Shown piece by piece: positions 2,675-40,834 of a stretch of DNA of 55,412 bases. The notes beneath the pieces are model-generated. The model was not told where the DNA came from. It did not search any database and worked only from the letters and a program-made list of their open reading frames with translations. The position numbers and the translations under genes are program-made. The stretch's first letter is position 1; the number at the start of each line of letters is the position of its first letter. Origin of the DNA: a virus; IMG/VR virus record IMGVR_UViG_3300030616_000028, positions 1 to 55,412 of that record; one strand, given 5' to 3'.

Positions 2675-3916
2675 ATGGCACACGAGACGTACGAAGCAGT
2701 CAAGAACCGCCTGGAGAGCGAGGGCATTCGCGAGATGATCGCCGGCTCGCTCGGCTCCCCGGCCGAGGTCGATGCGTGGATCAACGCCGTCCTCGCCACC
2801 ATCGGAACCGACAAGGAGATCCTCAAGGCGACACCGCTCTCGATCCTCGGCGCCGTCCTCGAGGCCGCTTCCCTCGGACTGCGGTTCGAGGGGCCGCTCG
2901 GGGAGGCCTATCTGGCGACGAGGTCGAAGCGCGAGAAAGACGACCACGGCCGTTGGGGATGGTCGCAGCCCGAGGCCCAGCTCCAGATCGGATACCGAGG
3001 ACTCATGAAGCTCGCGCGGCGTGACCCGCGAGTGCGGAAGATCGAGGCGATTCTGGTCCACGCGAACGACGCGTTCGAACACCGGCTCGGCTCGGACCCG
3101 TTCCTTCACCACACCTGGGACGTGCGCAAGCCGCGCGGCCCGATGGTCGCGGTCTACGCGGCGATCCGCTACAACGACGGCTTCTACGACTTCGGCCAGC
3201 CGTTCTCGATGGATGCCGTGATGCGGCACCGGGAGAACATCCTGGCCGACAAGCGTATCCGCGTCGAGCACAACGCTGACGGCAGCGAGCGGTTCGTCAA
3301 GGTCTGGGACGACGGCGAGAAGGAGATGACCCCGGCGCAGATCCGCCGCCTCCCGTGGGTTGCCTACCTCGAAGCGATGGCCATGAAGACGGCCGTCCGC
3401 TGGTCCGCGAAGTACTGGGATCTCGACCCCGACTTCGACCGCGCCACCGCGCTCATCTCCATCGACGAGTCGGGCCGCAGCCAGAAGCTGGAGGAGATTG
3501 CCCGCCGCATCATCCCCGAGGATGCCAAAGGCCAGGAGAACGGCGAGCCGGCTGCGAGCCGCACCGTGCAGGGCGCGGCCCTGATGAGGCAGGGCAGCCT
3601 CCGCGATCAGATGCTTCGGGAGAGCGGCCTGGGACAGGGCGACAACGAAGGCCCGCCCTCCGAGGAGGCTCCGCACCCCGAGGAGGAGAACGACGAAGAG
3701 CACGCCAGCCAGGGCGCGGAGAACGAAGGCCAGGAGAACGAAGGTCAGGAGGCCTCGCCCATGAGCGGGATGAGCGAGGAGGAGAAGCAGGCCGCGCTCG
3801 AGCTGGAGAGGCAGGAGGCCGAGGCGTTCGAGGAGGAGCAACGCCGCCTTGCCGAGGAGGCCGACCGTCCGCGTAACGGGCAGCGGCGCGGGGGTCGGCG
3901 CGGCTCGAAGAAGTAG
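2675..3916 (+). CDS. recT: RecT family single-strand annealing protein
   Basis: This 413-residue protein has the RecT core in its first ~270 residues: PLSILGAVLEAASLGLRFEG near 50, LQIGYRGLMKLARR near 100, then VYAAIRYNDG and KYWDLDPDFDRAT, all typical of RecT/Bet-like annealases. It would coat the single strand produced by YqaJ and anneal it to a complementary strand. The remaining ~140 residues are strongly acidic and glutamine-rich, ending in a basic GQRRGGRRGSKK tail. This extension is absent from the Rac prophage protein (269 residues) and may mediate protein contacts. The start follows an AAGGAGAGG box. Confidence 0.9.
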   Translation: MAHETYEAVKNRLESEGIREMIAGSLGSPAEVDAWINAVLATIGTDKEILKATPLSILGAVLEAASLGLRFEGPLGEAYLATRSKREKDDHGRWGWSQPEAQLQIGYRGLMKLARRDPRVRKIEAILVHANDAFEHRLGSDPFLHHTWDVRKPRGPMVAVYAAIRYNDGFYDFGQPFSMDAVMRHRENILADKRIRVEHNADGSERFVKVWDDGEKEMTPAQIRRLPWVAYLEAMAMKTAVRWSAKYWDLDPDFDRATALISIDESGRSQKLEEIARRIIPEDAKGQENGEPAASRTVQGAALMRQGSLRDQMLRESGLGQGDNEGPPSEEAPHPEEENDEEHASQGAENEGQENEGQEASPMSGMSEEEKQAALELERQEAEAFEEEQRRLAEEADRPRNGQRRGGRRGSKK

Positions 3917-6493: not shown

Positions 6494-7810
6494 ATGGCCA
6501 AGGCAAAGGCGAAGAAGACCGCCGCGAAAAAGAAGGCGACCACAAAGAAGGTGACCACGAAGGAGGCGGCGCAGAAAAAGCAGACCGAGGCACCGGAGGA
6601 GAAAACCACACCGGAGGAGAAGACCACCGCGAAGGATAGCAAGCCGCCCGAGAACGGAGTGCCGACAGAGGAGACGAGGATCTTGGCGTGTCAGTGCGGC
6701 TCGACCAAGTTCGACGTGAAGAAGCGCACCAGGACATCCGTCTCGCTCGTCTGCTCGAAGTGCGGACTGCGGTCGTCGGTCAAGGGCAACGTCGCGACCG
6801 TGCGCGTTCGTCAGCAGGAGATCCAGTACGCCCTCTCGCACACCGTCGTCTCGCCCGACGACTCCCCCGACGAGGGTGGCGCGGCACCTGGCGAGAAGAC
6901 CGGCGACGGCACCGGCCCTGTCGGTGGCGGGTACGTGACGCTTCGCTTCCGTGTCTCGAAGGAGGTTCGCGACACCATCGTCAACAAGGCGACGGAGTTG
7001 GTCCGCATCCAGAATTGCGGTGAGGACCAGTACCGCGAGCAGACCTGGCAGGGACACGCGCTGGAGTACATCTGTGCGGACTACATCTCGGGAGTCCCAC
7101 ACGAGGCGCTCCAGATCTACGACGCGATGGAGGCCGCTGCCGAGGAGGCCTATCGCTTCGCGGAGCAGGACGGGAAGAAGGAGCCGAGCGCGCGCAAGAT
7201 CCGCGACCTTCGCGCCCGTGTCCGCGACAAGCTCGCCGTTGAGTCGGGCTACCTTGACCCCTCGTTCCTCGGGGACGATGCACGTCAGCTCGACCTCCCC
7301 GACGGTGGTGAGGAGCAGGACGACGCGGAGGACGATCTGGAAGACACGGAGAACGACGGAGAGTTCGTCGAGGAGGAGGAGCCGCAGGCGGAGGCTGTCC
7401 CCGACTCTGGCCGTCTTCTCCGCGCTGTGCAGGCTGCGCTCGAGACGTACCACGAGGAGGCGAGCGGCGCAGGGATCGAGGAGGACGGACTGCCCGAGTT
7501 CGTCGTGCGCGATGGGGATACCCCCACCGATGACCTCGTCGAGAGGTGGACCAAGAGCGGTGGATACCTCCTTCGAATCCTCGGTGACGAGAGGACGGTG
7601 GATGAGAACGGCGCTCGCCCCTCCGTGTGCGTGTGGATCGCCAGCGAGCCGCCGGAACTTTCGCTGGACTTCGGCATCGAGTACGATGACGTAACGGACG
7701 AAATTCTCGGCGACGGTTCCTGCGAGGCCGTAGAGCTGCTGCCGCCCGACTACGCCGAGATCGAGCAGTGGGAGCAGCCGCACTTCGCGGATAGGAGGGA
7801 GACGCTGTGA
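6494..7810 (+). CDS. unknown protein with lysine-rich tail and zinc ribbon
   Basis: I do not recognise this 438-residue protein. Residues 1-55 are an Ala/Lys/Thr-rich, histone H1-like tail (KAKAKKTAAKKK). A zinc ribbon follows at about 68-96 (CQCG...CSKCG). A segment with YVTLRFRVSKEVRDTIVNKA and WQGHALEYICADYISG looks like a folded DNA- or RNA-binding domain. The middle is strongly acidic (EEQDDAEDDLEDTEND) and the C-terminus ends in a mixed alpha/beta-like segment. It sits behind the helicase with a GGAAAGGAG site, suggesting a DNA-associated role, but no function is assigned. Confidence 0.6.
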   Translation: MAKAKAKKTAAKKKATTKKVTTKEAAQKKQTEAPEEKTTPEEKTTAKDSKPPENGVPTEETRILACQCGSTKFDVKKRTRTSVSLVCSKCGLRSSVKGNVATVRVRQQEIQYALSHTVVSPDDSPDEGGAAPGEKTGDGTGPVGGGYVTLRFRVSKEVRDTIVNKATELVRIQNCGEDQYREQTWQGHALEYICADYISGVPHEALQIYDAMEAAAEEAYRFAEQDGKKEPSARKIRDLRARVRDKLAVESGYLDPSFLGDDARQLDLPDGGEEQDDAEDDLEDTENDGEFVEEEEPQAEAVPDSGRLLRAVQAALETYHEEASGAGIEEDGLPEFVVRDGDTPTDDLVERWTKSGGYLLRILGDERTVDENGARPSVCVWIASEPPELSLDFGIEYDDVTDEILGDGSCEAVELLPPDYAEIEQWEQPHFADRRETL

Positions 7811-9187: not shown

Positions 9188-10012
9188 ATGCGACACGTTC
9201 TTACCTATGCATTCATCGGTATCGTGGCGGCAGTATTCTTGCTCGCTAGCTCGACGGATCGAGGGGAGGCAGAGACGCGCCCCTGGATGGTTGAGCGGCC
9301 CGAGCCGCCCCTGGTCTTCGACGAGCATTGCTGCTCATGCGACGAGGCTGCGGCCCTCGACCTCGAGGCCCCCGTCGAGACGGTCGAGCAGCCCGAGTAC
9401 ATGGTCAGCGAGGAGCGAATGGTCGAGGAGGTCGTGCAGCTCTGGGAGATGTGGTTCGACGATCAGAATGCCAAGGCCTCCGACCCGCGGCGCGAGGACT
9501 TCTACAGGTTCGCGGAGTACGTCGTCGAGGCAGTCCGCATGTACCAAGATGGGCCTACCGACATCGGGGGCCAACTACCCGGCGCGAAGAACGACCACCT
9601 CGTCGTCGGTTACATGATCGCGAAGGAGTCCTCGGTGACTCCCGATGCGGTCAATGATAGCGAGAACGGGCGCGGTGAGGTCTGCCTGATGCAGCTACAC
9701 GGGAAGGCCCTCGCTGGCTACGCGCCCGAGAAGGTGCTCCACAATCCCAAGCTGTGCGTCCTCCTCGGCACGCGCTGGATGACTCACTTCTTGCCGAAGT
9801 GCCAGCAGGACGGCGCGGGAGGGATCTTCGGCAGCGAGTTCGCGTGGGAGGACGCCGACTGGATCGGGCCGCTCTCGCTCTACGCTGGAGGACCGAGGGC
9901 ACAGAGGAAAGACGGAAGCTGCGCGCAGTACGGCACGATCCGCGAGAGGATCGACGCTGTGCGGTTCTACCGCAGCCGCATCGACAAGGCGCTGGAGTAT
10001 TGGGAGGAGTGA
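9188..10012 (+). CDS. membrane-anchored or exported lytic transglycosylase (SLT-like)
   Basis: This 274-residue protein starts right after the amidase stop. An N-terminal hydrophobic segment at 6-21 (TYAFIGIVAAVFLLAS) is a signal peptide or anchor. The catalytic region has GYMIAKESSVTPDAVN with E147 as the candidate catalytic glutamate, then GEVCLMQLHGKAL in place of the usual G-x-x-G-L-M-Q motif and a terminal helix with YRSRIDKAL. Such enzymes cleave the glycan strand of peptidoglycan. With the amidase it forms a two-enzyme set attacking peptide and sugar bonds. It could act in lysis or entry; its position beside the endolysin favours lysis. Confidence 0.75.
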   Translation: MRHVLTYAFIGIVAAVFLLASSTDRGEAETRPWMVERPEPPLVFDEHCCSCDEAAALDLEAPVETVEQPEYMVSEERMVEEVVQLWEMWFDDQNAKASDPRREDFYRFAEYVVEAVRMYQDGPTDIGGQLPGAKNDHLVVGYMIAKESSVTPDAVNDSENGRGEVCLMQLHGKALAGYAPEKVLHNPKLCVLLGTRWMTHFLPKCQQDGAGGIFGSEFAWEDADWIGPLSLYAGGPRAQRKDGSCAQYGTIRERIDAVRFYRSRIDKALEYWEE

Positions 10013-10310: not shown

Positions 10311-10687
10311 TGGCAACGAAGCAGAAGACCGTGATCGGGATCTACCGACACGATGCCGCAGCGAAGGACGGGGAGGGTGCCTCGCGCATGGTGGAGCGCG
10401 TCGAGATCGATATTCCTGTGGACGAGTTCACGCGGAAGAAGGGATGGAAGGATCGCGTTCGGGAGGAGGCGGCGAAGCGCGGCTTCAACGTGCTCGCCGT
10501 GAGTGCCGTTCACAGCGGCGCCGACCTCGACGTGAACATCACGATGACCGTGGACAAGAAGCCGACCTCGTTCGGTCAGCGCCGTCGTGCCGTGACCCGT
10601 GGCGGTCGTCCTGTCGACGGCCCGATCAAGACCGGCAAGACGATGGCTGCGAAGCGAAGGGCGGCGCGCGAGACGCCGGAACGCTGA
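10307..10687 (+). CDS. unknown basic protein
   Basis: 126 residues, starting at an ATGATG that overlaps the previous stop. Residues 8-90 read like a compact alpha/beta fold (TVIGIYRHDA, VERVEIDIPVDEF, LAVSAVHSGADLDVNITMTV). The C-terminal third is strongly basic (GQRRRAVTRGG, AAKRRAARETPER), suggesting nucleic-acid contact. No family is recognised. Confidence 0.5.
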   Translation: MMATKQKTVIGIYRHDAAAKDGEGASRMVERVEIDIPVDEFTRKKGWKDRVREEAAKRGFNVLAVSAVHSGADLDVNITMTVDKKPTSFGQRRRAVTRGGRPVDGPIKTGKTMAAKRRAARETPER

Positions 10688-11499
10688 TGGACTGGCTCGA
10701 CCTATTCTCCTCGGAGGAGTACGAGTTGCCCGCCGAGATGGCACCTGGCGATCAGTTCGTCGGCGGCGCTGGATTCCCCGACGCAACGGTCAGGTCCTCT
10801 GAGTTGCTCTACCCTCGACGGACTCTCGTGCAGCGTGCCGACCTCGACGTCACTGACGGAGTGGGGGAGAAGCAGCAGAAGATCCGCGTGTACCGTACCC
10901 TCGTCGAGCTGGAGGACGGAGAGATCGTCGAGGTGAACCGCCGCGCTGTGCCTGGGGCCGAGGAGGAGTCTGCCGACGAGAGCCGCTGTGCGGCCTGTCT
11001 CGAGGAGATACCCGAGGGGCAAGCGGTCATCCACGACGGGAAGGCGTACCACCGTCGCTGCATGGGAGGAGAGGATGATGCTGATGATTCTGATCGGAGG
11101 ACTCGGGCTGGTGCTCGTAGTCATCGCCCTCGGAGATCTCGCGAAGACGGGGATGGACAAGAGGGGAATGGAGCACCACCCGCGACTCAAGCGCCGAGGA
11201 CGATAACGCGGACCAGGAGCGACGATGGGATCTCCGTGTCGCACCTCGTCTCCGTAGTCGAGATCGACGATGACCGCGAGGCCGTCACGCTCTGGGCGCG
11301 GGAGTACGGAGCGCGGAGTGGAACCGTCGTCGGCCGCTGGCCGAGTGGACTCTTCAACGGCGAGCTACCGATGGACCACGACGTCAAGTACATCGACGAG
11401 AAGTTCTACGCATCGGACGGCCTGGTCACGGCCTCGGATCTGCGGATCTGGAACAGGCTATACAAGGCTGCGATGCGCGAGCTGCGCCCGGTGCGATAG
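10687..11499 (+). CDS. unknown protein with central treble-clef zinc motif
   Basis: The ATG overlaps the upstream stop by one base. The 270-residue frame has three parts: an N-terminal region, a zinc-knuckle-like CAACLEEIPEGQAVIHDG...HRRCM at about 100-129, and a folded-looking C-terminal domain (HLVSVVEIDDDREAVTLW to the end). Between them, residues ~130-180 are a low-complexity Arg/Asp/Gly stretch (DRRTRAGARSHRPRRS) that looks like out-of-frame translation, and exactly there a second frame encodes a small membrane protein (11075-11206). Either this is one protein with a disordered linker, or a frameshift or lost stop merged two genes. In the latter case the downstream gene would begin near GTG 11236. 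Confidence 0.45.
   Translation: MDWLDLFSSEEYELPAEMAPGDQFVGGAGFPDATVRSSELLYPRRTLVQRADLDVTDGVGEKQQKIRVYRTLVELEDGEIVEVNRRAVPGAEEESADESRCAACLEEIPEGQAVIHDGKAYHRRCMGGEDDADDSDRRTRAGARSHRPRRSREDGDGQEGNGAPPATQAPRTITRTRSDDGISVSHLVSVVEIDDDREAVTLWAREYGARSGTVVGRWPSGLFNGELPMDHDVKYIDEKFYASDGLVTASDLRIWNRLYKAAMRELRPVR
11075..11206 (+). CDS. nested small single-pass membrane protein (candidate)
   Basis: A 43-residue frame lies entirely inside 10687-11499 in another reading frame. It begins ATGATG right behind GGGAGGAGAGG, one of the better ribosome sites in the region. The product is MMLMILIGGLGLVLVVIALG followed by a basic, charged tail (DLAKTGMDKRGMEHHP...LKRRGR), a classical one-helix membrane protein with positive-inside tail. 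It lies in the lysis neighbourhood, so a holin, antiholin or regulator is possible. The short length makes coding status uncertain. Confidence 0.4.
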   Translation: MMLMILIGGLGLVLVVIALGDLAKTGMDKRGMEHHPRLKRRGR

Positions 11500-12027: not shown

Positions 12028-12686
12028 GCCTCGCAAAGTCCAAACCGTTCCGCTCTCGTGCCTTCCTCCGCTTTTGCCACGAGTTCATGGCGCCAGCTCC
12101 GTGCTGCGTCTGCGAGCAGCGCCCGTGGGTACAGCTCCACCACTTCGGGGATGACGGAGGGAAGGGAATGAAGCCGAGCGACACGTCCTCGGCGCGGGTC
12201 TGCGTGGAGTGCCACAGCAAGTACGACCTGAAGCGGAGAGGCCTCATCAAGTCGGGGTACGAGGACGTGCTGGATCGCTTTCAGCACGACGCGCTCATCC
12301 TCCTTCGGGAGTACGTGCGGCACCTGGAGTCGTACAAGCGTAGGAGCCTACCCGCAGAGCGGTGCGGCGGGTGCGCGTTCTGTCGAGACGGTGAGTGCGA
12401 AGCGAAGCTCGAGCACGTCGAGCCACCGAACGAGTGCGCCCTCGATGAGCTGAACATCTGGCTCGTCACGGAGGCCCAAGGCCTCGGTCCAGATGAGCAG
12501 CGAGACTGGCTGCTATCCTGGTCCAACCGGCGCTCGGCCAACGTGCTCTCGTTCCTCGCGGAGCCGATGCTGGAGATCGCCACGGAGACGAGCGACGAGT
12601 CCTCGCGCTTCGTAGCCAAGCGCGCGCTGCGGACAGCGTGCCTGGGAGGGGCAGATGGGAAAGACGAAGATCGATTGGTGCGATGA
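12024..12686 (+). CDS. HNH-like (DUF968-type) putative nuclease
   Basis: I chose the GTG at 12024, which makes a GTGA overlap with the previous stop. An ATG at 12012 is equally in frame. The N-terminal part has CCVCEQRPWVQLHHFGDD, then SSARVCVECHSKYD: two CxxC pairs flanking an HH, the pattern of a DUF968/HNH-type fold. A further cysteine cluster (CGGCAFCRDGEC) follows near the middle. Phage members of this fold are thought to act as endonucleases or resolvases. The C-terminal helical region is not recognised. The 3' end overlaps the next gene by 32 bases. Confidence 0.5.
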   Translation: MSLAKSKPFRSRAFLRFCHEFMAPAPCCVCEQRPWVQLHHFGDDGGKGMKPSDTSSARVCVECHSKYDLKRRGLIKSGYEDVLDRFQHDALILLREYVRHLESYKRRSLPAERCGGCAFCRDGECEAKLEHVEPPNECALDELNIWLVTEAQGLGPDEQRDWLLSWSNRRSANVLSFLAEPMLEIATETSDESSRFVAKRALRTACLGGADGKDEDRLVR

Positions 12687-31808: not shown

Positions 31809-31855
31809 GGAGGCATCCGATGGGAATCCGTAACACCAGCAGACAGGAGGAGGAG

Positions 31856-32269
31856 ATGAGGATCACGTGGAGGACCCTCGTCGGCATCCTGGTCTTGGCC
31901 CTGCTCGCGGTCGTGCTGATCGCGTGCGGGGCGGAGGACCCGAAGCCGACCGACGAGAAGGCGAAGGTGGACGCCGGCAAGAAGGCGCTGGCCCCCGCCG
32001 CGGCTCCCGAAGTGAAGCCGCAGCCGAAGGACGTCAAGGAGACCGTTCCGACCAGCGTGGACAAGGACACGGGGAAGCCGCAGGCGGCTCTCGGTGCCGA
32101 CGTGCTCGAGTGCTTCACGGTACGCGCTGCGGCGCTGTCCGAACGTAGCTCGTTGTCCGTACTGAGAAGCAACTACCAGAGCGAGGAAACACCGGAGCCG
32201 GAAGTCGTACTGCTCTGGCGCAACGTGCGCTCGGCCAGCTCCCCGATCCATCGGTGGATTCGAGCTTAG
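31856..32269 (+). CDS. phage-encoded lipoprotein
   Basis: ATG 31856 follows GGAGGAGGAG; an upstream ATG at 31820 lacks a site. The 137-residue product has a lipoprotein signal: RITWRTLVGILVLALLAVVL then IAC, with lipobox L-I-A-C and Cys24 as the lipidated residue. After a Lys/Pro/Ala-rich linker (about 25-75) comes a short C-terminal region with no recognised fold. Its own promoter and surface location suggest a cargo gene such as superinfection exclusion or an o-spanin-like component. The function is not evident. Confidence 0.6.
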   Translation: MRITWRTLVGILVLALLAVVLIACGAEDPKPTDEKAKVDAGKKALAPAAAPEVKPQPKDVKETVPTSVDKDTGKPQAALGADVLECFTVRAAALSERSSLSVLRSNYQSEETPEPEVVLLWRNVRSASSPIHRWIRA

Positions 32270-32351: not shown

Positions 32352-32555
32352 ATGTCTATACGCGAACGGGTCCGAACGAAGCAGCTCAACATCCGGGTCA
32401 CGCCCGAGGAGCTGGACACGTTCAAGAAGGCAGCGGAGCAGAACAACGTCTCCGTGACCGAGCTCGTCGTCCAGGCGACCCTCGACAAGATCAACGACGA
32501 ACGGATGGTGTTCAAGGGAACGCTGCGCCGCATGCGGGAGGCAGGGGAGATATGA
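32352..32555 (+). CDS. ribbon-helix-helix transcriptional regulator
   Basis: 67 residues. TKQLNIRVTPEELDTFKKAA, then EQNNVSVTELVVQATLDKI, is a textbook RHH: beta strand QLNIRVT, helix 1, the N-x-S-V-T-E-L turn and helix 2. RHH dimers insert the strand in the major groove. GGGGGTG precedes the ATG. It starts right at a promoter and its first codons contain TGTCTATAC, also found upstream, so autoregulation is plausible. Confidence 0.7.
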   Translation: MSIRERVRTKQLNIRVTPEELDTFKKAAEQNNVSVTELVVQATLDKINDERMVFKGTLRRMREAGEI

Positions 32556-33229
32556 CCGCGAAGAAGAAGACCAAGGCCCCGAAGAAAACTGGCGGTTCGG
32601 CCAAACCGACATCGAAGGGACGGGTTACCAAAACAGGGCGCAAGCCAGATCCAAAGGCGGCGAAGAAAAAATCGGCACCGCAGCGGCGGAAGAAGTCCCC
32701 GAACATCAAGGCCGAGACGTACAACGCGCTCCAGACGGCGTACTTCGAGAGGCAGTCCATCGAGGGTGCGGCGAAGACGGTGGGCGTGACGAAGAACACC
32801 GCCCGATACTACATCGACGGACCAGGCAAGCCCGAGGTCGGGATGGTGCCGATCAAGCAGCTCTGGCTCGACGTGCAGATGGAGGCGCAGGAGAAGCGGC
32901 AAATGACGCTGCTGCGGTTCCACGAGGAGCAGACGAAGGAGCTGGAGGAGGTCCTCAATACCGTGTCGGCCGAGTTGAAGCTCATCCGTGCCTCCGTGCT
33001 GCGGCGGGTCAAGCGGTTCAAGGACAGCGGCGGGGTAGACATCGAGACGGGCGCGAGCCTCGGTCAGGCGCTCAAGAGCTACGAGCGCGTTTCGCGTCTG
33101 ATGGAGCGGTTCCTCGGCGCACCGGACGCAACGCTCGAGCACCGCGGTGAGGACAGGTACCGGCACTGGACCGACGAGGAGATCGTCGAGTTCGCCGAGA
33201 CGGGGAAGCTCCCCGATCATGCGAGGTGA
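32552..33229 (+). CDS. HTH protein, candidate small terminase subunit
   Basis: 225 residues. A lysine-rich tail (1-50) precedes a helix-turn-helix (NALQTAYFERQSIEGAAKTV, GVTKNTARYYIDG), then a long helical region (KELEEVLNTVSAELKLIRAS) able to oligomerise, and a C-terminal HWTDEEIVEFAETGKLP of the kind that ends many TerS proteins. TerS recognises phage DNA and loads it on TerL. It lies 6 kb from terL, farther than usual, so a separate DNA-binding role is possible. Confidence 0.45.
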   Translation: MTAKKKTKAPKKTGGSAKPTSKGRVTKTGRKPDPKAAKKKSAPQRRKKSPNIKAETYNALQTAYFERQSIEGAAKTVGVTKNTARYYIDGPGKPEVGMVPIKQLWLDVQMEAQEKRQMTLLRFHEEQTKELEEVLNTVSAELKLIRASVLRRVKRFKDSGGVDIETGASLGQALKSYERVSRLMERFLGAPDATLEHRGEDRYRHWTDEEIVEFAETGKLPDHAR

Positions 33230-33471
33230 TGATGAGCAAGCACATCCAGCTACTCGACGCGGCGCTCGGGGTGACTACGTCGCAACGCGGGAGCGAGTGT
33301 CAGGCCGATGCGGATAGCCTCCCTGGCTCCCCGCCTATCGGGACTGGGATCAACGGGGAGACGGCCCGTGCGGACCTGTACGCGCACCTCCTAATCGACG
33401 TCGTGCTGTCCAACCCTGGTGAAGGGTACGGGGACATCATCGCGCGACTGATTCGGGAGGAGGTCCGATGA
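33226..33471 (+). CDS. unknown 81-residue protein
   Basis: It starts at an ATGATGATG overlapping the previous stop, so the exact start is uncertain by two codons. The C-terminal half is helical (RADLYAHLLIDVVLSNPGEG). It overlaps the next gene by ATGA. No family recognised. Confidence 0.4.
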   Translation: MMMSKHIQLLDAALGVTTSQRGSECQADADSLPGSPPIGTGINGETARADLYAHLLIDVVLSNPGEGYGDIIARLIREEVR

Positions 33472-33683
33472 CCTCGATCCCAATGCCGCCCGTAGTTGCC
33501 TCGGAGGACGTCCCAGAGGGCTGTGTACTCCTCGTGAGCGGGCTTCGGGAGTATTCCCCTGGGGAGGGAGATACACCGAACCACGAGGTTCCTGGGACTC
33601 GCTACGAGGACGAGGACGGGAGGGAGAAGGTGCTCGGCTTCCTCGATGCGGCGAGGGCCATCGACTGCGGTGTGGGGAGGTGA
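33468..33683 (+). CDS. unknown 71-residue protein, last before the repeat array
   Basis: ATGA overlap upstream and GGGAGGAGG site. The sequence is mixed (EDVPEGCVLLVSGLREYSPG, REKVLGFLDAARAIDCGVG). Its stop directly abuts the first unit of the tandem array. Confidence 0.4.
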   Translation: MTSIPMPPVVASEDVPEGCVLLVSGLREYSPGEGDTPNHEVPGTRYEDEDGREKVLGFLDAARAIDCGVGR

Positions 33684-34522
33684 GAGATCTTGGGAGCATT
33701 GAGACAAGTTGCTCAGTCCGCGTCAGTATCCCCGTTCCGGGGAGCTTCGTCGGTTCTGGCCGGCGGCGCGGGCGCGGGGACTGAGGGAACTTGGGCGTGG
33801 TGTTACAGTACGGACAATTCCGTACAGTATCCCACTACGAGGGCGGTTCAGCGCGGCTCGGCGCTTTGGGCGCAGCGCGGTAGTGAGGGATCTTGAGGGC
33901 ATTGAGGACAGTGTTCCAGGTTGGCACAGTATCCCCGCGCTCGGGGGGCGTAGCGCGGCCTGGCCTCCTCGGACCCGTGCGGGGGTGGGGGATACTGAGG
34001 ACAGTGGGACAATACCCTCAGGTTGCTACAGTATCCCGCGGCTCGGGGGTCCTCCGGGGGCCTTCTCCTCCTGAATCAGCGGCGCGGTGTCGCGCACTGA
34101 GGGATCTTGAGCAGGGTGAACAAGGTGGCTCAATGGCCCACGCCGAGGGCGGTCCTCCGGGGGTGGCTCGCCGGGAACCTGGGAGGGACTGTCGGATCTT
34201 GAGGTCATTGAGACAATGCCTCCAGGTTGCTACAGTACCCGGCCCATCGCTCGCCTCGGCGCGGCCTGGCCTCCTCGGAGAGCGGAGGAAGTGCAGCGGA
34301 TTGAGGGAAACTGGACAGGGTGTACAGGCTGCGACAGTATCCCCCAAACCCGAGGACCCGAGAGGGCAGATTCTCCCCGAAGCCGCTCGGCGGGGTGAGG
34401 GACTGAGGGCCACTGTAGGGACTGTCTCAATGGTGACAGTCCGCGACAGGATCTTCCAGGGGCGCGAGGAGGCTCGTGGTTCGTCGGAGGGTCCGGGGGG
34501 ATAGCCCAGGGAGGGGCAGAGG
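33684..34522 (+). repeat. ~102-bp-period tandem array of eight units, apparently non-coding
   Basis: Each unit has a ~48-bp core resembling GGATCTTGAGG...TTGAGA-N17-TACAGTATCCC and a GC-rich ~54-bp remainder. The core starts at 33685, 33786, 33888, 33990, ~34102, 34194, ~34297 and ~34399. The CAGTATCCC tail or its counterpart lies at 33724, 33825, 33927, 34029, 34131, 34233, 34335 and 34447, exactly 102 bp apart from unit 2 to 7. In unit 6 the core is TTGAGA-N17-TACAGT with TGC before the -10, a good extended -10 promoter. CATTG-aga-CAATG (unit 6) and GTACGG-acaatt-CCGTAC (unit 2) are dyads. Unit spacers also resemble each other (CCTGGCCTCCTCGGA in units 3 and 6). A 203-codon frame with TTG start crosses units 3-8, giving degenerate 34-residue repeats with atypical codons. 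Confidence 0.75.
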
Positions 34523-35689
34523 GTGAACAACGAAGGAACAGCCTGCAGCGAGGCCCAGGCGAGGAACCAGGACGGGGTCATAGGCGAGGCCGAGCTACTC
34601 GACCGCCTTCGCTCGGCCAAGCGCGTCTTCCTCCTCGAGCCGCAGTACGGTCGGAAGTATCTGCCGCTGGGCCTGGCCAAGATCGCGACCTTCGTCAAGC
34701 AGAACGGCGGCCGGGTCTGGTTCGGGCGGAAGTACCTCGGCCCCCCGGTCGACCTCATCTGTGCCACCTCGCTGTTCACCTACGACTCCGCGAAGGTCCT
34801 CGCCTCGCTACGTAGCGCCGGCTCAGTAGCGAAGGACACGCCCATCATCGCGGGAGGGATCTACGCCTCGCTCATGTGGCGCCACCTCCTCTCAGAGATG
34901 GGCGACCGCGTCCTCGTCTTCCGAGGGTTCTCGAAGGTCCTCGACGAGCTCGTCCCCGACTACTCGTTGCGGTGGGGGATGGAGAAACCGTGGCCGTCGT
35001 TCTCGTTCACCTTCACGAGCCGCGGCTGCCCGAACCGCTGCGCGTACTGCGCCGTGTGGAGGATAGAGCAGGAGCCGTGGATCAACCCGCGCTGGCGCGA
35101 CCACATCCTACTCGAAAAGCCGTGCGCGATGATCTCCGACAACAACTTGAGCGCGGCTCCTCCCGAGCACCTGTACGCCGTGCTCGACTTCCTCGAGAAG
35201 ACGCAGCGGAAGGTGGTCTTCGACAACGGCTTCGACGTGAAGCACATCACCGACGAGATGGCCGCGCGCCTCGCACGTCTCCGCTTCGTCCGCACGGGGA
35301 TGAGGACAGCCTTCGACCGCATCGAGGAGGACGGCACATTTCAGATCGCAATCGAGCGGCTCATCGCCGCCGGCGTGAAGGCCTCCGACATCATGGTCTA
35401 CTCGCTGTTCAACTACCGCGACAAACCGCGCGAGGCGATGTACCGACTCAGCCAGATCCACCGCCTCGGCGCGAAGCCGTACCCGACGATGTACACCCCT
35501 CTCAACCAGAGTGCCCCACGGAGGGAGGAGCACCACGTTGGGAAGCACTGGACGTGGCCGCTCGTGCGGGCCTTCCGCGCGTACTGGCTGTTCGCGGGAG
35601 TCTACTCGAAGCACGACTTCGAGGAGTGGGCGAGAGGGCAGGACAAGATCGAACTGAGCGAGGAGGATTGGGCCGCATGGCACGCGTAA
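34523..35689 (+). CDS. radical SAM enzyme with cobalamin-binding-like N-terminus
   Basis: 388 residues from GTG 34523 behind GGGAGGGGC. C169, C173 and C176 in TSRGCPNRCAYCAVW form the C-x3-C-x2-C site for the 4Fe-4S cluster. DNNLSAAP and GMRTAFDRIEEDGTF are consistent with the following barrel strands. The N-terminal part (FLLEPQYGRKYLPLGLAKIA, VDLICATSLFTYDSAKVL, IIAGGIYASL) follows the B12-binding-type Rossmann pattern of many radical SAM methylthio- and methyltransferases. The substrate is unknown. It opens the block that leads to the ParB-like and TAGT-like genes. Confidence 0.8.
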   Translation: MNNEGTACSEAQARNQDGVIGEAELLDRLRSAKRVFLLEPQYGRKYLPLGLAKIATFVKQNGGRVWFGRKYLGPPVDLICATSLFTYDSAKVLASLRSAGSVAKDTPIIAGGIYASLMWRHLLSEMGDRVLVFRGFSKVLDELVPDYSLRWGMEKPWPSFSFTFTSRGCPNRCAYCAVWRIEQEPWINPRWRDHILLEKPCAMISDNNLSAAPPEHLYAVLDFLEKTQRKVVFDNGFDVKHITDEMAARLARLRFVRTGMRTAFDRIEEDGTFQIAIERLIAAGVKASDIMVYSLFNYRDKPREAMYRLSQIHRLGAKPYPTMYTPLNQSAPRREEHHVGKHWTWPLVRAFRAYWLFAGVYSKHDFEEWARGQDKIELSEEDWAAWHA

Positions 35690-36714
35690 AGCAGGAGAGG
35701 ACCGAGGCGAAGGTATGGGGGTACGGTGAGCCGCCGAAGCCGCCGAAGATCATCAACCCGATAGGGCCGACCTCGCCGTGGGTATGGGCTATCGAACCGA
35801 CGCACGGGTGCAACCTGCGCTGCGGTCACTGTAGCTGCCGACTCGACCCGTTGCCGAAGCAGTACCACTTCATGGACGAGGCGACGTGGGAGGCGACCTG
35901 GAAGATCATCGCGGCGCTCTGCCCGACGCGCCGTGTTGACCTCGTGCTCGGCGGTGAGCCTACTCTCCACCCGGGCCTCCCCGAGTTCTTGTCCGTAGCG
36001 CGGGAGATCTCCCCGCTCTCGCAGATTCAGATCACGACCAACGGAACGCAGATCCTCAAGGGGCGGTGGACCTATCGCCAGCTCATCGAGGCCGGGGCCA
36101 ACATCGTCTACACGGATATGTACGGCTCGCGGGAGAAGTACATCGCCCTCGCTCATGATGCGGGGTATCCGTTCTATGAATACTACGATGCGCCCGAGGG
36201 TGCCTGGTCGCCGTGGACCTATCACGGGCCGCGCCTCAAGATGGTCGTCCTCCAAGAGCAACCGGAGAACTGGCCCGAGAGCCGCTTCCGCGCGGGGCTG
36301 ATGGGCACGTGGTACAACCACCTCGATTGGGAAGCCGCAGCACGCTTCGGACTCAAGGAGGTTACGAAGCCGCCCGCGCGCCGCTGCAACCAGCCGTTCC
36401 TCTACGTCCCGGTCGACTCGCGGGGTCGCTACCTGCTGTGCTGCCAGGACAACACGGGGGAGTCGACGAAGGAGAACTTCGGCACGGTCCACGACGGCCT
36501 CGACGGGTTCAAGCGGTACTGGTACGGAGACACGATGCAAGCGGTACGGCGCCGCCTGCGGGAGAAAGACCGGGAGAATGCATCGGACTACTGCCGGCGC
36601 TGCTGCGTCACGTTCTCGCGGTGCGACTTCAAGCACTGGAAGGACGAGGAAGTGAACCACGTCTGGGACGGCGAGAAGTGGACTCGGGTCAGCGACAAGA
36701 AGGGAGCGGAGTAG
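35677..36714 (+). CDS. radical SAM enzyme with SPASM-like C-terminal domain
   Basis: 345 residues; ATG overlaps the previous gene by 13 bases. IEPTHGCNLRCGHCSC places C45, C49 and C52 in the radical SAM motif. GGEPTLHPGL is the G-G-E-P SAM-binding element and ITTNGTQIL the next strand. The C-terminal region has RRCNQPF, LLCCQDNTG and YCRRCCVTFSRCDF, a SPASM/Twitch-like auxiliary-cluster domain. Such enzymes modify peptides or small substrates. Being adjacent to another radical SAM enzyme it probably acts in the same pathway. Confidence 0.85.
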   Translation: MARVKQERTEAKVWGYGEPPKPPKIINPIGPTSPWVWAIEPTHGCNLRCGHCSCRLDPLPKQYHFMDEATWEATWKIIAALCPTRRVDLVLGGEPTLHPGLPEFLSVAREISPLSQIQITTNGTQILKGRWTYRQLIEAGANIVYTDMYGSREKYIALAHDAGYPFYEYYDAPEGAWSPWTYHGPRLKMVVLQEQPENWPESRFRAGLMGTWYNHLDWEAAARFGLKEVTKPPARRCNQPFLYVPVDSRGRYLLCCQDNTGESTKENFGTVHDGLDGFKRYWYGDTMQAVRRRLREKDRENASDYCRRCCVTFSRCDFKHWKDEEVNHVWDGEKWTRVSDKKGAE

Positions 36715-37529
36715 TGCCGAGGAACGACAGGCTGGAGTACGTCCAGCACGGTAGCGTACCGGGCAGGTTCAAGGCCATCGTCGGGAGGACGGGCAAGCCG
36801 GTTCTGACTAGCATGACGGTGTGCCGCTCGATACCTCTCCAGCACGGCGACGTCGTCGTCGACCTCGGGGCCTACGTCGGGCAGTACGCGCTCGCTGCGG
36901 CTCGCCTCCCCGTAAAGAAGGTGATCGCGTACGAGCCGACACCGGACACCTACCGCATCCTGGCTGAGTCAGCGCAGCCGAACCTCGAGGTCGTCAACGC
37001 GGCGGTGGTAGCCGACGAGCGCGAGTCGGTGGACTTCTACATCTCGGCCGGGATCGGCGTCTCGAACAGCGTGGTTCTCAAGCGCGGGAAGGAGAGGCGG
37101 GTGACCGTTCCCGCGGTGAGCTACGAGGAGGCGGTTCGCGGCGCGACCGTCGTGAAGATTGATGTCGAGGGAGCCGAGTACACCTACCCCATCGTCCAGC
37201 CATCGCTGCGTGCCATCATGATCGACTTCCACCCGATACGCGGGAGGAGGTGGGTCGAGCGGGCGCAAGAGATCATGTCCGAGATCGAAGCGGCAGGGTT
37301 CACCCCCGTCGTCGTCCCCAAGTTCAAGAGTGGGTTCGACTCGGACACGGCGGCGAGCTTCGTGCGGGACCTCCCCGTTGAGGGAGGGTTCGAACCCATG
37401 ATGAGCGGCGAGATGTGCTGCGGCTGCGGAGCAGAGATCCGTGGCGATGGACGCTCGCTCTGCTCGTCGTGTTGGGAGTTGTGGTCGAAGAAGCACCGCG
37501 AGGGATTCACCCTTGCGTCGGAGAAGTAA
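36714..37529 (+). CDS. FkbM-family methyltransferase with C-terminal zinc ribbon
   Basis: 271 residues from GTG 36714, sharing one base with the previous stop. DVVVDLGAYVGQYALAAARL (about 43-62) is SAM motif I, IAYEPTPDTYRIL is motif II, and VVKIDVEGAEY is the FkbM signature. The last ~45 residues add CCGCGAEIRGDGRSLCSSCW, a zinc ribbon not typical of the family. FkbM enzymes methylate hydroxyls, often on sugars. In this block a modified base or sugar is a plausible acceptor. Confidence 0.85.
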   Translation: MPRNDRLEYVQHGSVPGRFKAIVGRTGKPVLTSMTVCRSIPLQHGDVVVDLGAYVGQYALAAARLPVKKVIAYEPTPDTYRILAESAQPNLEVVNAAVVADERESVDFYISAGIGVSNSVVLKRGKERRVTVPAVSYEEAVRGATVVKIDVEGAEYTYPIVQPSLRAIMIDFHPIRGRRWVERAQEIMSEIEAAGFTPVVVPKFKSGFDSDTAASFVRDLPVEGGFEPMMSGEMCCGCGAEIRGDGRSLCSSCWELWSKKHREGFTLASEK

Positions 37530-38339: not shown

Positions 38340-39221
38340 ATGCAGCCTCGCTTCCCGCTCTACATTCCATCGAAGGGACGGCACGAGTACCTCATCACAA
38401 TGAAGGCGCTCGACCGCATGCGCGTCCCCTATCGCGTCGTCGTCGAGCCGCAAGAGGCGGAGGCGTACGCGAAGGCACTCGGCGACGAGAGCAAGGTGCT
38501 CGTGCTCGACATGGAGTACAAGCGCACCTACAAAACGTGCGCTACCGACGGCGACCAGATGAGGACCGGCGCGGGCGCTGCACGGAACTTCATTTGGGAC
38601 CATGCGATCTCCGAAGGTCACGAGTGGCACTGGGTCATGGATGACAACATTCGGAAGTTCTACCGGACGTGGAAGAATCGCCAGGTCGCCCTCGGCGACG
38701 GCACGGGCTTCCGCTTGATGGAGGACTTCTGCCTTCGCTACGAGAACATCGCGATGGCTGGCCCAAACTACTTCATGTTCGTGCCTCGCAAGGTGAAGGT
38801 CGGCCCCGTCGTTTTCAACACGCGGATCTACTCGTGCAACCTCATTCGGAACGACGTCCCGTTCCGCTGGCGCGGGAGGTACAACGAGGACACGATCCTG
38901 TCGCTCGACATGCTGAAGGCGGGGTGGTGCACAGCGCAGTTCAACGCCTTCCTTCAGGAGAAGCTACGCACGCAGTTGGTGAAGGGCGGCAACACGGAGG
39001 AAATCTACGGCGGCGGCACGTTGCCCAAGTCGCAGATGTTGGTCGACCAGCACCCCGACGTCGCGCGCCTCCAGTGGAGGTTCGGGAGGCACCATCACTA
39101 CGTCGACTATCGGCCGTTCAAGAGGAACAAGCTGCGGCGGAAACCAGACGCGGAGATCCCCGAGGGGACGCACGACTACGGCATGCGTCTGGTGCCTCGG
39201 GAAGTAGCGGAGAATCGGTGA
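38340..39221 (+). CDS. TAGT/GREB1-like glycosyltransferase (TET-associated type)
   Basis: 293 residues. PLYIPSKGRHEYLITMKALD at the start, VVVEPQEAEAYAKAL, GAARNFIWDHA (R82, N83) and HWVMDDNIRKFYRT with D101-D102-N103 are the landmarks of the TAGT family: a GT-A-like fold with a D-D-N metal site. Members are found with TET/JBP oxygenases in phages and are predicted to glycosylate hydroxymethylated bases. No TET-like gene is visible in the window, so the acceptor base is open. It directly precedes terL with a 4-base overlap. Confidence 0.7.
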   Translation: MQPRFPLYIPSKGRHEYLITMKALDRMRVPYRVVVEPQEAEAYAKALGDESKVLVLDMEYKRTYKTCATDGDQMRTGAGAARNFIWDHAISEGHEWHWVMDDNIRKFYRTWKNRQVALGDGTGFRLMEDFCLRYENIAMAGPNYFMFVPRKVKVGPVVFNTRIYSCNLIRNDVPFRWRGRYNEDTILSLDMLKAGWCTAQFNAFLQEKLRTQLVKGGNTEEIYGGGTLPKSQMLVDQHPDVARLQWRFGRHHHYVDYRPFKRNKLRRKPDAEIPEGTHDYGMRLVPREVAENR

Positions 39222-40834
39222 ACGCGGTAGCCCAGGATGCGGAGGTCGCGCCGAGTCTTTCTCGGCAGTACGCGCCTCCTCGGGGACACCTCCCGAGGAT
39301 CACTCGGGCCTCGTACCTTGAGACCAAATCCCGTTCGAAGCTCATCGAGAGGGCCGAAGCACTACGAAGGCGGCAGATCGAGAAAGCGAGGGAGTCGGCG
39401 TCGGCGTTCATGGAGTACTGCTTCGTCGACGAGGCTGACGGCTCCCCGTACAAGCAGCAGTGGTTCCACGACGAGTGGCACCACGCCTGGGACCGCTACC
39501 AGCGCGTGATGGTCATCGCGCCTCGCGACCACGCGAAGACGAGCAACGTCGTCGGTCGGACCATCTGGGAGCTGGGGAACAATCCGAACCTCCGAGTCAA
39601 GATTGTCTGCGCCTCCGACGGCCGTGCGAAGGAGAGGCTGTTCGAAGTAGACCAGCACATCAGGACGAACCCCCGCGTCCTCGAAGTGTTCCCTCACCTC
39701 CTCCCCGATCCAGACGCACCGTGGAACGCACACCGCCTGGTCCTCCGGCGGACGGCGCGGCACAGAGACGCATCGGTCGAAGCTCTCGGTATCACCTCGA
39801 CGGCAACGGGCGGTCGTGCGGACCTCCTCATCGCGGACGACGTCGTGGACCGCCGCAACGCGCTGTCCTTCCCCGCGCTCCGTGAGCAGATCAAACAGGC
39901 GTGGCGATCGGACTGGACGAACCTCCTCGAGCCGGACTCCCGCGTCTGGTACATCTGCACACTTTGGTCGCCGTCGGACCTCTCGCACGAGCTGATGGAG
40001 AACAAGGCCTATCGGGTCCTTCGGTACGACATCGATGACGACTTCGGCTCCATCTGGCCGGCGAAGTGGAGCGAGTACCATCTCCGCATGCGGTACGAGG
40101 AGATTGGGAGCATCGAATTCAACCGCGCGTTCCGCAACCAGGCCATCGACACGGAGTCGGCGCTCGTGCAGCCAGAGTGGTTCGCCTTCGCGGACCTCCG
40201 CGAGGACAAGCGGTTCGCTGAGATCATCGAGAGCGAGGCGGCGATCTTCCTCACCTCCTACGACCCCGCGGGGACGCCGAACCCGAGGGCGAAGAAGAAC
40301 AACGACCAGGACTTCACGGGCGCTTGCATCGGCGCGGTAGACCGGGAGCAGGGGAACGTCTACATCGTCGACGCATGGCACGAGCGCATGAGCGTCAAGG
40401 CACTCGCGGACAGGATCTTTGCGGAGGCCCAAACCTACCAACCTTGGCAAGCTCTCATCGAGAAGGTGGGACTCGCAACGGTGGACGAGTGGGTCATAAA
40501 CGAGCACCCTGAGATGATGAGCCTCGTGAAGGTAACGAAGCCGCGTGTCTCGAAGCAGATGCGGCTCCTCGGCACGACCCCGTTGCTGGAGAAAGGCAAG
40601 ATCATTTTCTCCTCTCACCTTGACCCGAACGGGGAGCTGTTCGATGGGCGGCGCGGGTCCTTGGTGGACGAGCTGATTGAATTCCCGTTCGGGAAGCACG
40701 ACGACATGGTGGACGCGTTCTCTCAGATGATCGGTGCGGCCCGGGCGCACTTCCTTGACGTGGACGCTGACGGAGGTGAAGATGTACCAGAGATCCACTT
40801 CGGCGACGAGGGCGACGATGAGTACCCGTTCTGA
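39218..40834 (+). CDS. terL: terminase large subunit
   Basis: 538 residues from GTG 39218 (GTGA overlap). The ATPase half has VMVIAPRDHAKTSNV (Walker A variant, about 97-111) and ADLLIADDVVD (Walker B, about 201-211). The RNase H-like nuclease half has LTSYDPAGTPNP with the first metal-binding aspartate and GKHDDMVDAFSQ near 494 with the last. TerL cuts concatemeric DNA and drives packaging into the prohead. The long N-terminus (~80 residues before the ATPase) is polar. Packaging strategy cannot be deduced. Confidence 0.92.
   Translation: MNAVAQDAEVAPSLSRQYAPPRGHLPRITRASYLETKSRSKLIERAEALRRRQIEKARESASAFMEYCFVDEADGSPYKQQWFHDEWHHAWDRYQRVMVIAPRDHAKTSNVVGRTIWELGNNPNLRVKIVCASDGRAKERLFEVDQHIRTNPRVLEVFPHLLPDPDAPWNAHRLVLRRTARHRDASVEALGITSTATGGRADLLIADDVVDRRNALSFPALREQIKQAWRSDWTNLLEPDSRVWYICTLWSPSDLSHELMENKAYRVLRYDIDDDFGSIWPAKWSEYHLRMRYEEIGSIEFNRAFRNQAIDTESALVQPEWFAFADLREDKRFAEIIESEAAIFLTSYDPAGTPNPRAKKNNDQDFTGACIGAVDREQGNVYIVDAWHERMSVKALADRIFAEAQTYQPWQALIEKVGLATVDEWVINEHPEMMSLVKVTKPRVSKQMRLLGTTPLLEKGKIIFSSHLDPNGELFDGRRGSLVDELIEFPFGKHDDMVDAFSQMIGAARAHFLDVDADGGEDVPEIHFGDEGDDEYPF

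Follow-up and report, generated by a model that had tools for sequence, protein, structure and literature searches.

An 839-bp tandem array of eight degenerate units fills the entire gap between two genes (33684-34522) in a soil-phage genome, and all eight units, once brought into register, share a mirror-symmetric 45-bp frame, TG-N8-TG-N7/8-TG-N3/4-CA-N7-CA-N8-CA, that is, one TG/CA step per helical turn with the orientation inverted at the centre. The phage is represented by a fragment of 55,412 nucleotides (IMG/VR record IMGVR_UViG_3300030616_000028), to the whole of which we refer as the window. Judged from its sequence, the array is best read as a DNA-level platform for protein binding, with about an even chance that it is loaded by the terminase via its small subunit (TerS) in a recognition of the pac/cos type.

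Organisation of the array

According to the gene calls made here, no other non-coding stretch of the window is as long as this gap, which as a whole is assigned to no strand and is bordered by a 71-aa ORF upstream (33468-33683) and by a radical SAM gene downstream (34523-35689). Its autocorrelation has peaks at lags of 102, 204, 306 and 408 bp, with an identity of 0.46-0.48 and z of 8 to 12 against dinucleotide shuffles, and further ones at 8-10, 19 and 112 bp; no comparable autocorrelation was found at other places in the window. The units in register start at 33678, 33779, 33881, 33983, 34085, 34187, 34289 and 34401, with steps of 101 bp, five times 102 bp and 112 bp, the last unit being shifted by 10 bp, or one helical turn, from the 102-bp register. 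A sequence-only reading had described a tandem array of eight units with a period of about 102 bp, with counterparts of CAGTATCCC at 33825, 33927, 34029, 34131, 34233 and 34335; the array is real and the counterparts are in place, and autocorrelation and re-registration reveal more order than was first described.

The 45-bp dyads, all given on the plus strand, occupy 33681-33725 (unit 1, which at its start overlaps the stop codon of the ORF before it), 33782-33826, 33884-33928 (unit 3, with an inner step off by 1 bp), 33986-34030, 34088-34132, 34190-34234, 34292-34336 and 34404-34448. Their mean pairwise identity is 54.5% at a GC content of 54%, and the spacers between them are 49% identical and 74% GC. 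Tandem Repeats Finder misses the array because its units are only about 50% alike, and no dispersed copies were found in the window outside this one localised array.

In every unit the frame places TG at positions 4, 14 and 23/24 and CA at 28/29, 37 and 47, so that the steps on either side of the centre are 9-10 bp apart. The dinucleotide columns identical in all eight units are exactly the four outer steps, TG4, TG14, CA37 and CA47, and four invariant columns were given by none of 2000 shuffles, a comparison which is too lenient and overstates the independence of the columns, the units being related by descent through duplication. It is these outer steps alone that have been kept, against change at about half of the other positions; the inner TG and CA wobble by 1 bp. 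The unit profile correlates with its own reverse complement at r = 0.60 (median over shifts 0.00), and TG periodicity in the array exceeds that of every shuffle. The contact motif is roughly YTGAG, with 11 copies in the array against 2.0 in shuffles and 0.9 expected from the window average, and a scan of the window confined full-frame or near matches to the array. The embedded dyads noticed earlier are real, but their centres differ from unit to unit, and the invariant feature of the core is this TG/CA frame, instead of the pair of -35 and -10 hexamers around which the core had been drawn.

It had also been considered that the array encodes a protein repeat or an expanded structured RNA, and neither suggestion survived. 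Identity by codon position is 0.482/0.490/0.459 (p 0.85), with no codon-position signal, and stops in all plus-strand frames leave none of them open. The RNAalifold consensus energy is near zero, -1.29 kcal/mol, including a positive covariation term of +0.35; folding of single units is mixed (z = -2.9 to +0.9), and Rfam and tRNA searches of the array returned nothing.

Genomic neighbourhood

Nearly all gene calls of the window are on the plus strand. The array lies 454 bp downstream of a candidate TerS gene (32552-33229, plus strand) and 4.7 kb upstream of the gene for the large terminase, TerL (39218-40834, plus strand; phrog_38, E 1e-74). The candidate TerS has an HTH followed by a long helical hairpin; its AlphaFold model shows a confident HTH (pLDDT about 95) and then a long helix, and in several relatives TerL is directly preceded by a gene for a homologue, for instance at 9394-9981 of L030. 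No PHROG, Pfam or PDB sequence match was obtained for it, and a fold search with the model gave nothing significant, small terminases 4xvn and 6v1i appearing only at E 1.4 and 2.6, so the assignment is made by synteny and architecture. Upstream of it a ribbon-helix-helix (RHH) protein, NikA-like or Arc-like, is encoded (32352-32555, plus strand), with a Pfam NikA-like score of 34.7 bits (cut-off 27) and hits to Arc repressors.

Downstream of the array follow two radical SAM genes, an FkbM methyltransferase, a ParB-like protein, TAGT and TerL. The radical SAM genes stand one after the other, and a SPASM domain is present in the second; together with the FkbM-type methyltransferase they occupy 34523-37529 between TerS and TerL; for the second radical SAM gene and the methyltransferase no homologue was found in the relatives examined. 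Elsewhere in the window we observed an ORF resembling a lipoprotein, with a signal sequence, that precedes the RHH and TerS genes (31820-32269), the second-longest gene-free gap (12028-12654, 627 bp), in which no array was found, and a sugar-nucleotide epimerase/decarboxylase-like ORF on the minus strand of this otherwise plus-strand phage (19794-20768), which has no homologue in the relatives.

Relatives of the phage

Relatives were gathered via TerL, as 36 loci in IMG/VR. In the nearest of them, L008 and L002 (81% and 79% TerL identity; TerS 64%), the order of TerS, radical SAM and ParB genes is kept and small ORFs or a short gap replace the array, which is absent from the other close loci bearing TerS and from one further locus added by a dedicated TerS search. 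Searching 3.2 Mb of relatives with a profile of the core gave no hit, annotated phages had no BLAST match to the array or to the right half of the window, and scans of IMG/VR with exact-core, double-dyad and triple-dyad patterns found none either.

Several candidates were set aside. TGAG clusters in L008 (5523) and L350 (11683) look on inspection like coding DNA, and the other repeats found in relatives, non-coding in L085 and L073 and coding in L061, have a different motif. That of L085 (G021; 10680-11250) is a quasi-repeat of 5-bp phased NNNCC words with lags of 73/78 bp, about 30 kb from the terminase, and in L073 (G016; 3481-3680) TT dinucleotides recur every 10.8 bp along 200 bp, which makes this segment a candidate for intrinsic curvature. 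In bacterial genomes the triple-dyad pattern had four matches, all unrelated tandem repeats; one chance match, in L105 (Paenibacillus sp. Root444D2; 7366-7640), is a non-coding 114-bp tandem repeat with internal palindromes.

Only one relative has a comparable array. In the distant G021 (L024; IMG/VR 3300037461_000986), whose TerS is 29% identical, about 22 direct 10-bp repeats, YTGAGCAA or AGGGACGAA (YTGAGC / GGGACG), lie exactly between TerS, which ends at about 9664, and TerL, at 10001. This array shares with that of the window a YTGAG half-site every 10 bp and a location between TerS and TerL, and differs from it in having direct repeats, no dyads and no 102-bp unit. Since tblastn found no RHH gene in G021, a helically phased YTGAG array occurs next to terS twice in this phage family, independently of the RHH gene.

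Phased TGAG arrays near terminases of other phages

A scan of IMG/VR with the pattern TGAG(N6TGAG)3, that is, four TGAG at 10-bp steps, gave at least 120 stretches, and among the matches listed nearly all are non-coding, which the pattern itself favours, TGA being a stop. In 50 records TerL was searched for with phrog_2 and phrog_38, and the arrays were placed in record coordinates; 19 unrelated records combined a TGAG array, a detected TerL and a length of at least 19 kb. Among the matches listed, the array and TerL are at most 2.1 kb apart in 11 of these 19, where 2.8 would be expected (p about 5e-6), figures which are indicative, as the cut-offs were chosen after the distances had been seen and the records are phylogenetically unweighted. 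Over all distances, among the same matches, the Kolmogorov-Smirnov (KS) p is 2.6e-4 with a circular null and 0.009 with a linear one, for which Fisher's combined p is 0.07.

As a control we took the anagram TAGG, likewise a stop in every frame. It lies within 2.1 kb of TerL in 6 of 34 records (4.8 expected) and within 3.3 kb in 16 of 34 (7.0 expected); among the matches listed, TGAG is closer to TerL than TAGG with a Fisher p of 0.004. These data indicate that proximity to terminases is a general tendency of phased decamer arrays, the TGAG ones being the closest; because TAGG too is enriched within 3.3 kb, the association of TGAG with TerL may reflect non-coding DNA near terminases generally. 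Beside TGAG arrays elsewhere, no general enrichment of inverted CTCA copies was seen. In L127 (about 3100-3250) and L115 (about 6850-6950), upstream of TerL, phased TGAG runs precede a similar segment that contains CTCA (CTCATG...TCTCCTCAAG), which suggests that these loci have dyads as well.

Discussion

Of the three roles offered by the sequence-only reading, that of a protein-binding array is the one which is supported. We infer that TerS (or TerL) is the binder and packaging the purpose; the location of the array, between candidate TerS and TerL, speaks for this, as do the phased repeats of G021 and the association of TGAG arrays with TerL. Each 45-bp unit would offer three TG-type half-sites (about YTGAG) and three inverted copies, six contact sites in all, which would face the same side of the helix at intervals of one turn, with the dyad units about 102 bp apart and GC-rich spacers between them. 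The terminase would load on this array via its oligomeric HTH small subunit, encoded 0.45 kb upstream, whose HTH domains may read one site per turn, and once loaded would mark the phage DNA for packaging; each 102-bp unit may seat one terminase oligomer, and with a dyad the contacts could be made in two opposed sets of three.

The main weakness of the packaging reading is that close relatives with a 53-67% identical TerS lack the array; either such sites would have to be replaced quickly in evolution, or the array has another role. Three plus three sites arranged as a dyad do not readily match a ring in which all HTHs point the same way, and the direct, non-dyadic repeats of G021 also count against this reading. 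How TerS recognises DNA has been called a key question still unanswered, and the model of nucleosome-like wrapping is said to lack support (PMC9611059). For PaP3, TerS has been modelled to bind DNA by lateral interdigitation of adjacent HTHs (PMC7672466).

Among known systems a close parallel is offered by phage T7, and a pac/cos-type array of new architecture, of the same kind as SRL/SRR, is the reading which we favour. Short-repeat arrays beside the terminal repeats of T7 are named SRL and SRR. At the T7 left end, copies of CCTAAAG stand at 13-bp steps next to the terminal repeat. The cultured phage LUZ100 has CCTCAAG-like repeats at 12-bp steps (36971, 36983, 36995, 37007 and 37018), shortly before its annotated right terminal repeat at 37100, and in Bordetella phage BB8 CCTAAGG, CTTAAGG and CCTGAGG follow each other at 11-12 bp steps about 200 bp before a terminal repeat that is inferred from identical ends. 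By comparison these repeats are of other motif and spacing, and of the same kind in the same place. Like those of T7, the repeats of the window are short, imperfect and non-coding and lie beside the packaging region and TerL. The T7 ones, in contrast, are direct heptamers spaced at 13 bp and located at genome ends, whereas the array described here, known from a 55-kb linear fragment, lies inside a longer gene run, and instead of a single CCTAAAG-like motif at direct steps of 12-13 bp it has steps of 9-10 bp in inverted groups of three, six phased half-sites forming dyads repeated every 102 bp. The earlier statement that no element like this had been described holds for this architecture, as far as we searched, but not for short-repeat arrays beside packaging ends, which are known from T7.

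The array also resembles pac sites in being near terS and terL: in SPP1 and SF6, repeat elements near the terS gene were proposed as TerS sites, while the isolated DNA-binding domain of SF6 TerS has little sequence specificity for the pac repeats (PMC4737164). The SPP1 pac differs from the window array in having three sets of direct repeats over the terS promoters and start, and no 102-bp dyad array.

Other binders and other origins of the array have to be weighed against the packaging reading. RHH dimers of the ParR, Arc and omega kind bind tandem or inverted short sites cooperatively, and their arrays resemble the present one in that each element has several short sites, spaced by about a helical turn, which can be inverted. 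With an RHH gene 1.1 kb upstream in the same gene run, the array could be its operator, for autoregulation, or a centromere-like element for plasmid-like segregation; we consider this rather unlikely, since at least seven relatives that lack the array have kept the gene, and the genome bearing the closest array is without it, so that the two do not co-occur; the array, too, follows the RHH gene instead of standing at its promoter. Moreover, the proteins scanned included no recognisable ParM, ParA or TubZ partner. Unlikely, and somewhat more so, is a replication origin, or an array for another phage or host protein (an initiator, a nucleoid protein, or a repressor to be titrated). Iteron-like phased repeats occur at origins too, and one array in one place, with no copies scattered over the window, is as much in keeping with an origin as with a packaging site, but the recognised replication genes (DnaB-like helicase, RecT, SSB) are 16-30 kb away and no AT-rich unwinding element was seen, the spacers being 74% GC.

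That the array is a tandem duplication decaying without function would agree with its lack in close relatives and with the low likeness of its units; it seems improbable to us, as exact spacing and a mirror-symmetric frame kept in eight units of eight at such divergence argue for selection. Still less probable is a bank of tandem sigma70-like promoters, with extended -10 elements, driving the radical SAM/ParB/TAGT block, as had been suggested at first. Unit 6 does contain TTGAGA-17-TACAGT with an upstream TG (34208-34236), but it is the only unit of the eight to pass a sigma70 scan, in which shuffles give 0.2 sites, and within the core the -35 columns belong to those with the lowest conservation, whereas columns outside the promoter elements are invariant.

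If the packaging reading is taken more broadly, phased short-site arrays beside terminase genes might form a widespread and largely unrecognised packaging code, with one site per turn for the HTHs of TerS, a tentative idea with the balance against it. The window phage would then have a complex version, in which each of the eight dyads has six sites and every 102-bp unit could seat a terminase oligomer. An invariant contact per helical turn beside terminase genes offers ready-made substrates for testing the turn-by-turn reading of DNA, and the simpler 10-bp-phased versions in unrelated phages are further such substrates. If true, it would make packaging sites predictable from sequence.
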